Shown one piece after another: positions 7,717 to 34,470 of a stretch of 37,356 bases of DNA. The stretch spans positions 1-37,356 of the IMG/VR virus record IMGVR_UViG_3300030107_002437; one strand, written 5' to 3'. The stretch comes from a virus. The notes under the pieces were generated by a model. The model ran no database searches. It saw nothing but the letters and a program-made list of their open reading frames with translations, and was not told the origin of the DNA. Made by a program: the position numbers and the translations under genes. Within the stretch, counting starts at the first letter, position 1. Each line of letters opens with the position of its first letter.

Positions 7717-8472
7717 ATGAATGAAGAAGCTCAAGTAGAAACAGAAGTAGAATCAACTGAAACAGAAGTTCCGCCAACACCAGCAAGTGAAAGTGTTGAA
7801 GAAGTAAAAGCAGAACGCCCTGATTGGTTGCCTCAAAAATTTGAAAGTCCAGAACAGTTATCTGTTGCTTATGGTGAATTAGAAAAACGTCATTATCAGC
7901 GTACAGATGATTTAAAAAAGACTGTAGCAGAAGAAATGCAAAAAGAAGCATTTGCTGATGTTCCAGAAGTTCCACAAGATTATAAAGTTGCTGATGATTT
8001 AGGTGTTGAAATACCTGAAGATGATGTAATGCTAAACTGGTGGAAAGATCGTTCTCATCAATTAGGTTTAAGTGATAAAGAGTTTAATGGTTTTATTAAA
8101 GAATATCACGAAATGGCACAACAAAGTGGACCTGATACAGATGCAGAAATAAATGCTTTAGGTGAATATGGCGAAAAAAGAGTAGAACGTGTTAACGAAT
8201 GGTTTAAATCTAATATGGAAAAAGAAAACTATGAAGTGTTAGCACAAATGCCTATTACAGCTCCGTTAATTCAAGCATTAGAAAACATTATGGAATTAGC
8301 TGGTCAACCAGGTGTTACCATACAAGATAGTGGTGAGCTTAAAGATACTTTAACTAAAGATGACTTAAAAAATATGATGAAAGATCCACGTTATCATTCT
8401 AAAAACGATCCTGTATTTCGTCAAAAAGTTAAAGCTGGATTTGAAGCATTGGCACGACAACAAAATAATTAG
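7717..8472 (+). CDS. Capsid assembly scaffolding protein, T7 gp9-like
   Basis: The 251-aa product is acidic at the N-terminus (Glu/Val/Thr/Pro-rich for about 35 residues). It then has PDWLPQKFESPEQLSVAY and ELEKRHYQR, the pattern of podoviral scaffolds: a disordered acidic start, a 'P-WLP-KF-S-E-L--AY' segment and a helical body. It lies directly before the major capsid gene. Scaffolds guide procapsid assembly and leave before DNA entry. The C-terminus is basic and helical, fitting the part that contacts capsid. Confidence 0.88.
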   Translation: MNEEAQVETEVESTETEVPPTPASESVEEVKAERPDWLPQKFESPEQLSVAYGELEKRHYQRTDDLKKTVAEEMQKEAFADVPEVPQDYKVADDLGVEIPEDDVMLNWWKDRSHQLGLSDKEFNGFIKEYHEMAQQSGPDTDAEINALGEYGEKRVERVNEWFKSNMEKENYEVLAQMPITAPLIQALENIMELAGQPGVTIQDSGELKDTLTKDDLKNMMKDPRYHSKNDPVFRQKVKAGFEALARQQNN

Positions 8473-28036: not shown

Positions 28037-28157
28037 AGGTTACTGTATTATAAGTGGCCCAATTAATCCTACTGATGCAGATATAGATGTTATATCTGAT
28101 GAGTTAGTTGATGATTTATTAATTCATAATGAAATCTATGAAAGGTTATGTGAGTAA
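27957..28157 (+). CDS. Rz1-like outer-membrane lipoprotein (spanin candidate, 66 aa)
   Basis: The 66-aa product has KLKRKLMLLLLVLSVASC, a lipoprotein signal with the lipobox VASC and lipidated Cys at residue 19. The mature part contains YCIISGPINPTDADIDV and LLIHNEIYERLC, resembling small phage lysis lipoproteins with the pattern 'C---pi--s--D-------i--hN--w--lC'. It starts within the preceding gene, as Rz1 does within Rz. It would act in the outer membrane at the last step of lysis. The next gene starts at its stop. Confidence 0.75.
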   Translation: MKLKRKLMLLLLVLSVASCGSIGSGNKGYCIISGPINPTDADIDVISDELVDDLLIHNEIYERLCE

Positions 28158-28525
28158 TGTACGAATATCGTTGCACATTACGAAGGGTTATAGATGGTGA
28201 TACAATAGATGTTGATATCGATTTGGGATTTAAAGTGTGGTTGCAGAAAGAACGAGTGCGATTATATGGCATTAACACGCCTGAAAGCCGAACAAGAAAC
28301 TTGGCTGAGAAAAAGTTGGGTTTGGCTTCGAAGGCTAGGCTTAAAGAACTCTTGCCAAAAACCTTTATTGTAAGAACAGAAAAAGATGGTAAAGGTAAGT
28401 TTGGCAGAATACTTGGTATACCATTAGTTGATAATGTAAATATTTGCGATAAATTAATAGAAGAAGGTCATGCTAGAAGTTATTTTGGTTATGGACCTAA
28501 AGAACCATGGGTAAAGGAGGAATAA
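28157..28525 (+). CDS. Staphylococcal nuclease-like (SNase/TNase) endonuclease
   Basis: The 122-aa product contains the SNase motifs VIDGDTIDVDIDLGF (residues 11-25), RVRLYGINTPESR (33-45) and GKFGRILG. R35 and E43 match catalytic residues of the family, while the position usually taken by a metal-binding Asp is Asn-40, a common variant in bacterial members. There is no signal peptide, so it should act in the cytoplasm, perhaps degrading host DNA. It sits in the late lysis cassette rather than in the replication block. Confidence 0.88.
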   Translation: MYEYRCTLRRVIDGDTIDVDIDLGFKVWLQKERVRLYGINTPESRTRNLAEKKLGLASKARLKELLPKTFIVRTEKDGKGKFGRILGIPLVDNVNICDKLIEEGHARSYFGYGPKEPWVKEE

Positions 28526-28696
28526 ATGTTTGAATGGTTAAATGGTTGGTTTACACCTAAACCTAGCCAAAAAGATTTAAATAAATTAACTAAATTAGAA
28601 TTAGAAGCTAAAGGTCGAGAAATTGGCATTGAGCTTGATAGACGATTAAAAAAGAATAAATTAATAAAACAATTAGAAAAAGCATTAAATGGATAA
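28526..28696 (+). CDS. Small SAP-like helical protein (56 aa)
   Basis: This short frame starts with ATG after a perfect AAAGGAGG and stops inside the lysozyme start (ATGGATAA overlap). The 56-aa product has WLNGWFTPKPSQKDL followed by LTKLELEAKGREIGIEL and a basic helix. The 'L-K-ELEA-GRE-GIELDRR--K--LI--L' pattern resembles SAP/LEM-like two-helix modules found in marine phage proteins. DNA binding is possible. Coding status is well supported by the RBS and overlap. Confidence 0.65.
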   Translation: MFEWLNGWFTPKPSQKDLNKLTKLELEAKGREIGIELDRRLKKNKLIKQLEKALNG

Positions 28697-29147
28697 AAAT
28701 AAACTTATAGATTTAATTTCAGATCATGAAGGTGTAATTTTAAAAGTATATGATGATGGTACTGGTCAAGAATTACAAGCTGGTGATATTCTTATAGGAC
28801 ATCCTACAATAGGTGTAGGTAGAAATGTAGCAAAAGATGGTTTAGGTATATCTGAAGATGAGGCTAAGTATTTGTTATTAAACGATATTTCTAGAGTTGA
28901 ACAAGAAATTAAAAACTTTCCGATAGATCATTTAAATGAAGTTAGAACTGCTGTTATTATAGATATGGCATTTAATATGGGAATAACGAGATTTAATCCT
29001 ACAATGTGGCCCAATTTTTTTAGAGCAATAGCTAATGAATTATGGAATGAGGCTTCTAAAGAAATGTTAGATAGTAATTGGGCTAGACAAACAAAAAGAC
29101 GTAGTAAAAATTTATCTAAAATGATGTTTACAGGTCAATGGTTATAA
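28689..29147 (+). CDS. T4-type lysozyme (GH24 endolysin)
   Basis: The 152-aa product cleaves peptidoglycan glycan strands at the end of infection. The catalytic Glu is in DHEG (E14), followed by YDDGTG (Asp-22/23) and HPTIGVGR (Thr-40), the E-D-T triad of phage muramidases. AFNMG and RFNPTMWPNF further down are family-typical. There is no signal peptide or SAR segment, so a holin is required. It is the last rightward gene; its stop lies directly before the parS-like palindrome. Confidence 0.92.
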   Translation: MDKNKLIDLISDHEGVILKVYDDGTGQELQAGDILIGHPTIGVGRNVAKDGLGISEDEAKYLLLNDISRVEQEIKNFPIDHLNEVRTAVIIDMAFNMGITRFNPTMWPNFFRAIANELWNEASKEMLDSNWARQTKRRSKNLSKMMFTGQWL

Positions 29148-29165
29148 ATGTTTCACGTGAAACAT
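29148..29165. promoter_or_regulatory. Perfect parS-like palindrome
   Basis: ATGTTTCACGTGAAACAT is a perfect 18-bp palindrome. Its inner 16 bp (29149-29164), TGTTTCACGTGAAACA, equals the consensus bacterial chromosomal parS site bound by ParB/Spo0J. It fills the gap between the lysozyme stop and the stop of the converging minus-strand gene. It has no loop and no T-run, so it is a poor terminator. The sequence match is seen; binding by host or phage protein is an inference. Confidence 0.75.
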
Positions 29166-29371
29166 TAACCGTTGTCTATACCTCTATTACTATTATTTAT
29201 AGCATCAGCTATTCTTTTTATAATCCAATTTAAACTTTGTTTATCTATTTGTCTAAAATACATTGTACCTTCTACAGTTACTCTTAATTCTAAAATACCT
29301 TCAATACATACAGCATCTACTATAAGATTATCTGTTGTATGTATTCCTTTTCCTGGAATAAGATCTGACAT
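29165..29371 (-). CDS. Hypothetical small protein (68 aa)
   Basis: ATG at 29371 follows an AAGGTAAATA RBS. The 68-aa product is mixed in composition with a beta-rich middle (GILELRVTVEGTMYFRQIDK) and a helical end. Its start overlaps the preceding gene's stop. No domain is recognised. It is the last gene of the leftward 29165-33186 block, ending at the parS-like palindrome. Confidence 0.6.
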   Translation of the reverse strand: MSDLIPGKGIHTTDNLIVDAVCIEGILELRVTVEGTMYFRQIDKQSLNWIIKRIADAINNSNRGIDNG

Positions 29372-29613
29372 TATTTACCTTCTTTCTTTTTTTGTGTGTA
29401 ATAATACCAAGAAGCCATATGTGCAAACACTATTATCCAATCGCTACTAGTTTTAGTTTTGCTAAAATCTCTCATAATATCTTCTGGATTAGCATTTTTT
29501 TTAATTAAAGTTTCTAAAACTGTAACTGTTTCTTTAATAGCATCTAATTTATATAAAGCATCTAATTTTTTTGGATCATCTTCAATTTGCAATGTATTTA
29601 GTCCAAAATTCAT
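29371..29613 (-). CDS. Hypothetical small protein (80 aa)
   Basis: The 80-aa product is predicted helical, with a charged N-terminal half and an aromatic stretch near the C-terminus (WIIVFAHMASWYYYTQ) that could associate with a membrane but is short. It overlaps the preceding gene (29582-29773) by about 30 bases. No domain is recognised. It belongs to the closely packed leftward early set. Confidence 0.6.
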   Translation of the reverse strand: MNFGLNTLQIEDDPKKLDALYKLDAIKETVTVLETLIKKNANPEDIMRDFSKTKTSSDWIIVFAHMASWYYYTQKKKEGK

Positions 29614-29773
29614 TTTTATCCATTTTTAATTCTTTAGCTATTTCTTTAGCTTTTTCATGTAATTCATCTTCTTCAGTATAAGATGTGGCTCTACGTGCAT
29701 AAATAAAAGCTAAATTATTTTTTAGTTTTTGTATTTCTAACCATAAATTATTATATTCTTTTTTAGGTTCCAT
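29582..29773 (-). CDS. Hypothetical small helical protein (63 aa)
   Basis: The 63-aa product begins MEPKKEYNNLWLEIQKLKNN and is strongly charged and predicted helical. It overlaps the DUF2958 gene by 11 bases and the next leftward gene by 32 bases, consistent with translational coupling. No known family. Confidence 0.6.
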   Translation of the reverse strand: MEPKKEYNNLWLEIQKLKNNLAFIYARRATSYTEEDELHEKAKEIAKELKMDKNEFWTKYIAN

Positions 29774-30092
29774 ATTTCTTTTCCATTTCTATACATTCTT
29801 CAGGTGTATATTTATTGGCTTCAAAATGTTTATCTTTTTCTATAGGTAAATTAAAAGGTGGTGTTTTAATTCGTTTTAATTGTATCATGTCAATACTACC
29901 TATTTCTACTTCTTGTATGCTACAAACTCCAAAAGCTATAGTTTCATCTTCTGTCATAGATGTTATATACCATGTTCCTAATCCACTAGGATTAAATAGT
30001 TTAATAACAGCTTTTTGCATGTTACCTGTTCTAGTTTCTATTTCCCAGTTTTTGTTTAACTGTTTTTTTTGTGATTCTGTATATAATTGCAT
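29763..30092 (-). CDS. DUF2958-like protein (109 aa)
   Basis: The 109-aa product matches the DUF2958 pattern as I know it. KAVIKLFNPSGLGTWYITSM is followed by AFGVCSIQEVEIGSIDMIQLKRI, and the C-terminal LPIEKDKHFEA agrees with the family's 'KLF-P-G--TWL-TE ... FGLCDLG--ELG-VSL-EL ... LP-ERD-HF'. The family is typical of plasmids and integrative elements, where its role is unknown. Here it lies just downstream of the ParB-like gene, separated by paired hairpins. ATG follows AGGAGAGTATA. Confidence 0.75.
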   Translation of the reverse strand: MQLYTESQKKQLNKNWEIETRTGNMQKAVIKLFNPSGLGTWYITSMTEDETIAFGVCSIQEVEIGSIDMIQLKRIKTPPFNLPIEKDKHFEANKYTPEECIEMEKKYGT

Positions 30093-30121: not shown

Positions 30122-30185
30122 ACACGAATGAGCTTCGTGTTGGGCGAAGGCTTAGAGGCTAGCGTGATGCAGTTTCTAAGCCTTC
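30122..30185 (-). other. Two stem-loops between ParB-like and DUF2958 genes
   Basis: ACACGAA (30122-30128) pairs with TTCGTGT (30134-30140) around a five-base loop. GAAGGCTTAGA (30146-30156) pairs perfectly with TCTAAGCCTTC (30175-30185), the latter covering the last codons of the ParB-like gene. There is no strong T-run on either strand. They may be mRNA processing or protective elements, or a weak terminator. The pairing is seen; function is inferred. Confidence 0.5.
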
Positions 30186-30907
30186 AAGTTCAAGTTAAAT
30201 CGTATTCTTTTATCAATAGATGTTTTATGATTATATAATTTTTCTATATTAACAAGAAAATCATGTCTGCTTCCTTGATTTTTTAATATAGAAGAAAAAT
30301 TTTCTAACTTTTGTTCAAAGCGTGTCCAGGCAAAATCTTTTTCTCTAATAGCAAAAATCATAGCAGTTACAAAAGTACGTTTTTTATAATGCTCAAAATA
30401 TTCTCCAATTTTATTAATTCTTTTAGCTATTAATTTACCTTGTTCTAAGTTTTTAATTTTAAACTTACCTTCTTTAAATTCTACAGTATGTTTAGCACTT
30501 CTTTGTGCGCCACCATCTAACATTTGGCAACATTCATTAATACCAAATTTATATGTTCTATAGAACCATTCTAAATATACATAATCTTCTACTCCTAATT
30601 GAGCAAAAGAGTTCATATATGTTAATGGTGTCCAATTTTTTTGAACAGAATTAACTTGTCTTATATCTGCTAAATTAAAATCTTTTTTAACAATATATGT
30701 TACAGGTTTAGATAATATTTCATAAGCTTTAAGCCTATGTTGTCCGTCAACTACATTCATGTCTTGGTCTACAATTATAGGCATAGCTAAATCTTTTTCT
30801 TTTATGCTATTAACTAAATTGCCTACATGAGTATAATTTATAGGTCTGTTACCTTTAATAAATTTAAACATGGTGTATTCAGTAGTTTTTAAGATTTTAT
30901 TTGTCAT
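30176..30907 (-). CDS. ParB/sulfiredoxin-like GQHR-motif protein
   Basis: The 243-aa product has a ParB-like N-terminal domain. INYTHVGNLVNSIKEKDLAMPIIVD is followed by VVDGQHRLKAYEIL (residues 52-65), where GQHR corresponds to the GERR/GHRR nucleotide-binding box of ParB-type CTPases. The C-terminal two-thirds is helical and basic but does not show an obvious canonical ParB HTH to me. It could act in segregation, regulation or as a nuclease. Its neighbours are the annealing protein, the exonuclease and a parS-like site about 1 kb away. No ParA is visible. Confidence 0.75.
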   Translation of the reverse strand: MTNKILKTTEYTMFKFIKGNRPINYTHVGNLVNSIKEKDLAMPIIVDQDMNVVDGQHRLKAYEILSKPVTYIVKKDFNLADIRQVNSVQKNWTPLTYMNSFAQLGVEDYVYLEWFYRTYKFGINECCQMLDGGAQRSAKHTVEFKEGKFKIKNLEQGKLIAKRINKIGEYFEHYKKRTFVTAMIFAIREKDFAWTRFEQKLENFSSILKNQGSRHDFLVNIEKLYNHKTSIDKRIRFNLNLKA

Positions 30908-33998: not shown

Positions 33999-34470
33999 AT
34001 TAACAGAAAGACAAGTTACATCATTAGATGTAGTACGTAAAAGATTAAATGAGGCAGTATTTATACCTGTACGTGATTTAAACAGAGAAGCTGTAGATGA
34101 TTATTTAGATGATGCCGAACAATCTATTCTGGTATTACTACAAGGTGCAGGGCCAGAAAAGATTGCTAGAGGCATCGGATTTACAGCTAAAATGTTAGGA
34201 TGTAAAGTACCTGATCCTTTTATGATGAAAGGTTTTGAAAAGTTATTATCAGATATTCCTAATGATTTGTGGGAAAGAGGCGTTTTAAAATTGTTAGAAA
34301 CACATACGTTCTGTAAAATACCAACACCTGGTGAGTTTTTAGCACCAATTAGAGGTGAATGGTATGAACGTAAAGATTTATTAAAACGTATTCAGCTCCA
34401 TAAATCACGTTTAGAATTGGCTGATAATTTAAACGATAGAAAACCTAGTAAAATCAAGAGGTTACAGTAA
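33988..34470 (+). CDS. Possible replication accessory protein (160 aa)
   Basis: I choose the ATG at 33988, with GGGGGAAACAAT upstream; an in-frame TTG lies 21 bases earlier. The 160-aa product has IARGIGFTAKMLGCKVPDP, NDLWERGVLKLLETHTFCKIPTPGEFLAPI and a basic C-terminal helix. The 'h-W---P-PgE-l---' pattern recalls proteins that load or inhibit replicative helicases, but I cannot confirm it. It is encoded with the RuvC-like gene, so a DNA-replication link is reasonable. The end overlaps a converging gene by nine bases. Confidence 0.5.
   Translation: MANELTERQVTSLDVVRKRLNEAVFIPVRDLNREAVDDYLDDAEQSILVLLQGAGPEKIARGIGFTAKMLGCKVPDPFMMKGFEKLLSDIPNDLWERGVLKLLETHTFCKIPTPGEFLAPIRGEWYERKDLLKRIQLHKSRLELADNLNDRKPSKIKRLQ

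Follow-up and report, generated by a model that had tools for sequence, protein, structure and literature searches.

An orphan host-type parS site at the late/early gene junction of a marine phage as a candidate loading site for host ParB

Results

A perfect parS palindrome fills the gap between two converging operons

The DNA analysed here (hereafter named the window) is the whole 37,356-nucleotide stretch of the IMG/VR virus record IMGVR_UViG_3300030107_002437. The following features were located at and near the junction between its late and early operons:

28689-29147, plus strand: phage lysozyme (endolysin), final gene of the late/lysis operon (Pfam PF00959, PHROG 7)
29148-29165, no strand: palindrome, parS, a perfect match that is kept in relatives
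29165-29371, minus strand: gene at the end of the early operon that converges on the late one, without a match in PHROG or Pfam
30176-30907, minus strand: ParB/sulfiredoxin-fold DGQHR protein (hereafter the GQHR protein), 243 aa (PHROG 12305; fold match of the N-domain)

The inner 16 bp (29149-29164) of the perfect 18-bp palindrome ATGTTTCACGTGAAACAT correspond to TGTTTCACGTGAAACA, the exact chromosomal parS consensus; comparison with TGTTNCACGTGAAACA, the consensus reported for the chromosomal parS of ParABS systems (PMC7022226), gave 0 mismatches, in agreement with the preliminary description of this DNA. An exact 16-mer had been estimated to occur far less than once in 37 kb, and the computed expectation is indeed about 1e-5 per window (32% GC; order-0 or order-1 models). 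Apart from 29148-29165, no parS-like site with up to 3 mismatches was found in the window. The palindrome exactly occupies the space between the stop of the lysozyme gene at 29147 and the stop of the minus-strand ORF, and has one base in common with ORF 29165-29371. The convergent junction at the palindrome was correctly recognised in the preliminary description, but it is not the only one if the ORFs that converge near 34470/34647 are genes.

The lysis operon contains, as one of its best conserved genes, a staphylococcal-type thermonuclease homologue (window 28157-28525), and a DUF2958 protein (PF11171; window 29763-30092) is encoded in the early operon, adjoining the ParB-like gene. No tRNA hinting at an attachment site was found, and no close DNA relatives were retrieved among GenBank phages by megablast.

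The junction site is conserved in related phages

Relatives were taken from viral contigs by means of the lysozyme, the ParB-like gene, the major capsid protein (MCP), the thermonuclease and the YqaJ exonuclease. The window and L122-L124, L284, L283, L129, L132, L294, L295, L002, L128 and L143 share an identical 16-bp core at their convergent junctions (spurious overlapping ORFs led the simple ORF caller to label some junctions wrongly as tandem). L122-L124 are near-identical phages with the exact 16-mer at the same junction. The exact 16-mer was also found there in L129 and L132 (lysozyme 76-78% identical), in L182/L294 and L183/L295 (ParB-like protein 74% identical) and in L180/L284 and L052/L283, where no lysozyme precedes the site. 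An HNH-like gene replaces the lysozyme in L002, and L128/L143 have a different left gene; the exact 16-mer is kept in all of them. The left neighbour has been swapped in L284 as in L002, leaving parS unchanged, and the right neighbour (29165-29371) has been swapped for another gene in L129, L132 and L002. At least three left and at least four right neighbours were found in combination at this junction.

Alignment of the diverged junctions showed 18/18 or 17/18 identical positions in the core, and often only 3-7/15 in the adjoining 15-bp flanks. The values for the window and L129 were 5/15 (left), 18/18 (core) and 4/15 (right), and those for the window and L002 were 6/15, 18/18 and 4/15. Therefore, the stretch 29148-29165 is more conserved than the surrounding DNA. 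The retention of the core at the late/early junction despite the swapped genes on both sides suggests that it probably attaches the phage DNA to host ParB.

The search for the 16-mer at the same junction, which had been proposed in the preliminary description, was successful in many relatives, and the palindrome is hence not missing from all the close ones, but its distribution is uneven. In relatives whose left gene is of the L128 type (L139, L140, L141, L142, L144, L146 and L159) parS is replaced by TGTTTCACATGAAACA, and L131 and L136 differ from parS at two positions. The junction site has been lost in L155, indicating that parS is not essential across the whole group. The MCP relatives G013, G016, G019 and G021 (65-73% identity, contigs of 35-38 kb) contained no site with up to 2 mismatches, which makes the trait patchy.

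The contig IMGVR_UViG_3300029448_006480 (L052, L283) carries parS at positions 2287-2302 and 2617-2632, and the stretch flanked by these copies comprises an HNH-like gene together with a fragment of the right-hand gene that is repeated. This may represent either a cassette duplication or a misassembly.

A sister clade carries the site inside a scaffold-like gene

Most members of a sister clade, whose MCP is about 50% identical, lack the junction site. Many members of this clade contain an exact parS, or one with 1-3 mismatches, within a scaffold-like gene located directly upstream of the capsid gene. This gene is the homologue of window 7717-8472, and the site lies in its N-terminal linker, where it is translated as V-[S/P]-[R/H/Q/N]-E-T (VSRET, VPRET, VSHET or VSQET). 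Such in-gene sites were located at the following positions:

L248:561-576, parS-like site in the scaffold-like gene
L243:1356-1371, parS-like site in the scaffold-like gene
L249:6795-6810, parS-like site in the scaffold-like gene

The mismatch counts within the scaffold-like gene were bimodal, with 0-3 mismatches at 19 loci and at least 5 at the remaining loci. The conserved element there could be the peptide itself, and the sister-clade site is consequently taken as support and not as proof. The comparison of both clades indicates that parS moves between positions among related phages.

Pelagibacter phage Hodr, which is the nearest isolate by capsid protein (about 50% identical), has only TGTTTCAAATGAAACA, a 2-mismatch variant, in the scaffold-like gene (peptide VSNET). 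The site was also missing from HMO-2011 and from 7 further tail-related isolates, of which six are Pelagibacter phages and the seventh is MEP301.

The GQHR gene probably does not form a partition system with the site

The fold search aligned residues 4-91 of the GQHR protein to ParB of M. xanthus (Z 9.4, 2.3 A), and the comparison of its N-domain with ParB N-domains (Z about 9) shows that the modelled protein contains the ParB N-terminal CTPase fold. The whole model had a weak match to Spo0J (Z 4.5), whereas the helical half alone gave only weak matches to unrelated folds, and no HTH was found in it, although one may be present there. The protein reached 19 bits against TIGR00180, whose cut-off is 58.45, and neither a Pfam match nor an LG(K/R)GL-type ParA motif was found in its sequence. 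Hence, the earlier label of "ParB-like gene" is right only as regards the ParB/sulfiredoxin fold, and the gene does not appear to encode a canonical centromere-binding ParB (TIGR00180). The reported absence of ParA was borne out by the search of the window with PF13614, the sole family searched (14/14 controls positive), which gave no match. Judging from these searches, the window encodes neither the ParA ATPase nor the canonical ParB of a ParABS system of its own.

The GQHR gene and parS were found together in the window, L122-L124, L180, L182 and L183. An exact parS without the GQHR gene was observed in L002, L129 and L132, and the GQHR gene was present in L188, L189, L191 and L193, whose whole records lack a parS with up to 2 mismatches. 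This independence in both directions speaks against the phage protein as the partner of the palindrome, which had been suggested as one option, and indicates that the GQHR protein probably has a separate function. Phage orphans with the ParB-CTPase fold and without the ParA motif have been reported in a survey (PMC12704722), and the GQHR protein, with its distribution independent of parS, falls in this broad class.

parS is over-represented in phages of hosts with chromosomal ParB

A search with the parS 18-mer (N-padded query) retrieved 315 of the 50,697 records of a redundant phage collection, and a composition-matched scrambled palindrome retrieved 0. In IMG/VR the 18-mer was present in at least 120 contigs or stretches and the scrambled palindrome in 1, one such palindrome being used as control per collection. 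Chance as the origin of parS is ruled out by these controls together with the expectation of about 1e-5 given above.

The leading names among the phage records were Listeria, Microbacterium, Arthrobacter, Gordonia, Bacillus and Lactobacillus, some of the Listeria records being possible induced prophages or contamination; Microviridae and inovirus-like records were also retrieved. Phages of Enterobacteriaceae were outside the ten leading names, despite the presence of at least 595 Escherichia records in the collection, and Enterobacteriaceae have been reported to be devoid of chromosomal par genes (PMC7022226). The phages that carry parS infect mainly hosts with chromosomal ParB. The variant TGTTCCACGTGGAACA was found in 58 phage records, with Pseudomonas phages in the lead. 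It is also carried by the Klebsiella jumbo phages RaK2, K64-1 and Muenster, in the first two within a baseplate wedge gene; these phages are an exception to the host pattern, their hosts being without chromosomal par genes.

The 18-bp parS also occurs in very small ssDNA phages, such as Microviridae, the inovirus-like bajarodino viruses and Spiroplasma phage 4 (PQ006097, PQ006148, MG945609, M17988 and other records), some of which have 5-6 copies in 6 kb. Four to five exact copies within a few kb were observed in each of L007, L014, L069 and L117. In the Pseudomonas syringae phages phiPsa374 and phiPsa267 a near-parS lies in the annotated direct terminal repeat (KJ409772.2:388-410 and MT670417.1:372-394).

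The 16-mer is present in plausible hosts

The host of the window phage is probably alphaproteobacterial. The Rhodobiaceae MAG G100 belongs to a class from which 142 genomes were drawn; 100 of these contained the exact 16-mer, typically as 1-2 copies close together, and parS lay beside parA-parB in the alphaproteobacterial examples that were fetched. The genome G200, a 1.21-Mb contig with 28% GC and a bacteriorhodopsin-family gene, has a single exact parS inside gidB, in the VSRET frame and adjoining parA and parB (L365:3471-3486, which is G200:C1:121789-121804). In the family of G200, a site with up to 1 mismatch was present in 39/60 genomes (23 of them exact), and 38 of these 39 had a single site. 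These rhodopsin-bearing Alphaproteobacteria, with genomes of about 1 Mb and 28% GC, are probably SAR11-like, and the family is a plausible host family of the window phage. The CACATG variant of some phage relatives was also found beside parAB in L361, L343 and L355.

Assignment of the host through genome contigs carrying the MCP was attempted and rejected, since the Flavobacteriales, Rhodobiaceae, Novosphingobium and Euryarchaeota MAGs obtained were too inconsistent to name one. The nearest ParB-like proteins point to a Flavobacterium host; no parS with up to 3 mismatches was found in the 33.6 kb examined of phage lillamy, which belongs to this lead.

Discussion

The best explanation of the junction palindrome, to which we assign a probability of roughly two in three from sequence comparison, is that of an orphan parS of the host type, from which clamps of host ParB would load onto the phage DNA for the benefit of positioning or segregation. 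A consensus parS triggers the closure of ParB into a CTP clamp, and its spreading (PMC12704722). During infection, the host chromosomal ParB would recognise the palindrome, close as a CTP clamp and slide onto the adjoining phage DNA, so that a ParB patch would form at the late/early junction. Through this patch, host ParA, and probably also SMC, would bind the phage genome, which would be positioned, would stay with the nucleoid and would reach the daughter cells if lysis is slow or deferred. The phage would then need neither a ParA nor a centromere-binding ParB of its own. The model of host ParB capture, regarded as attractive in the preliminary description, gains support up to the binding step from the conservation at the junction, the enrichment in phages of ParB-bearing hosts and the presence of the 16-mer in plausible hosts. 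ParB binding itself, ParA/SMC loading and a positioning or segregation benefit in preference to ParB titration are what we infer from this pattern.

A standard lytic burst cycle requires no segregation, and therefore the benefit of parS is not obvious. Positioning, or inheritance under slow lysis, is probably the likeliest one. The main alternative is interference: host ParB would be bound, and the phage copies would titrate it off the host parS, or the coating of DNA would block division or replication control. Nearly all the site-bearing genomes of the G200 family have one site, which the dozens of copies made by phage replication would soon exceed in number, and a single high-affinity site per phage genome would be enough at high copy number. 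However, many public phages have several sites per genome and small ssDNA phages carry parS too. Sequence data do not separate titration from positioning, and we regard interference as rather unlikely.

Two other roles for the palindrome are much less probable. As a bidirectional transcription terminator of the converging operons it would be suitably placed, in the exact interval that separates the two stop codons, and in the window its flanks lengthen the hairpin to about -15 kcal/mol. Nevertheless, 0 intrinsic-terminator-like sites were detected in 28600-29700, the T content after the stem ranges erratically from 1 to 5 of 8 across the relatives, and the extended stem varies among them without compensatory changes, whereas the core sequence is constant. 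Moreover, the presence of the site within genes, both in the sister clade and in many other phages, makes a terminator or any fixed-junction role fail as an explanation. It is similarly improbable that the palindrome is kept mainly as a crossover point for the exchange of gene cassettes, joining interchangeable modules. The identical 16-bp core does join differing left and right neighbours, and the contig 3300029448_006480 has two copies flanking the HNH-like gene, but that contig may be a misassembly, and this role accounts neither for the identity with chromosomal parS nor for the enrichment in phages of ParB hosts or the copies in coding linkers. Least probable of all is binding by the phage GQHR protein, in spite of its gene lying about 1 kb from the palindrome, its ParB N-domain fold and the genomes in which gene and site coexist, because each occurs without the other and the protein lacks the TIGR00180 score, the Pfam match and the ParA motif mentioned above.

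Host ParB capture can be compared with known systems. Phage P1 and the extrachromosomal mycobacteriophages encode their own ParA/ParB and use non-chromosomal centromeres. These phage-encoded partition systems (PMC7157519 for the mycobacteriophages) likewise have a centromere-type site on the phage genome; the window phage differs from them in the absence of ParA and in its host-type site. Chromosomal parS has the same 16-bp palindrome as the phage site, but it adjoins parA-parB, whereas the copy in the window is on a phage, is single and has neither parA nor a canonical parB in its vicinity. The closest precedent is the phi29 family of virulent phages, for which exploitation of host ParB/Spo0J has been reported: host Spo0J is said to mediate the entrapment of phage DNA in spores (PMC9437464, with reference to Meijer et al. 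2005). The 18-bp parS was found here within the endolysin gene of the phi29-like phages B103, Goe1 and relatives. Unlike these, the window phage is marine, its presumed alphaproteobacterial host is non-sporulating, its site lies at a convergent junction and its link to ParB is a prediction.

In the literature searched, no report on orphan parS sites in phages at large was found. The window phage, a marine phage of lytic type, carries such an orphan host-type site, and the trait is apparently widespread and was undescribed in that literature. We consider it an evenly balanced proposition that orphan host-matched parS sites represent a general and largely unrecognised strategy, by which phages whose hosts possess ParB acquire the host centromere again and again, shift it and retain it, in one or few copies located either in intergenic positions or in protein linkers that tolerate it, and thereby place their replicating DNA under ParB-CTP/ParA/SMC in lytic infection. 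The host pattern makes this idea directly testable: the sites occur in phages whose hosts have ParB and are few in those of Enterobacteriaceae, and Pseudomonas phages lead among the carriers of the variant. If true, it would explain the unannotated 16-bp palindromes of many phage genomes, some of them within structural genes, and it would mean that lytic phages, including marine phages that probably infect single-centromere alphaproteobacteria, exploit a bacterial machinery for chromosome segregation that they do not encode themselves.
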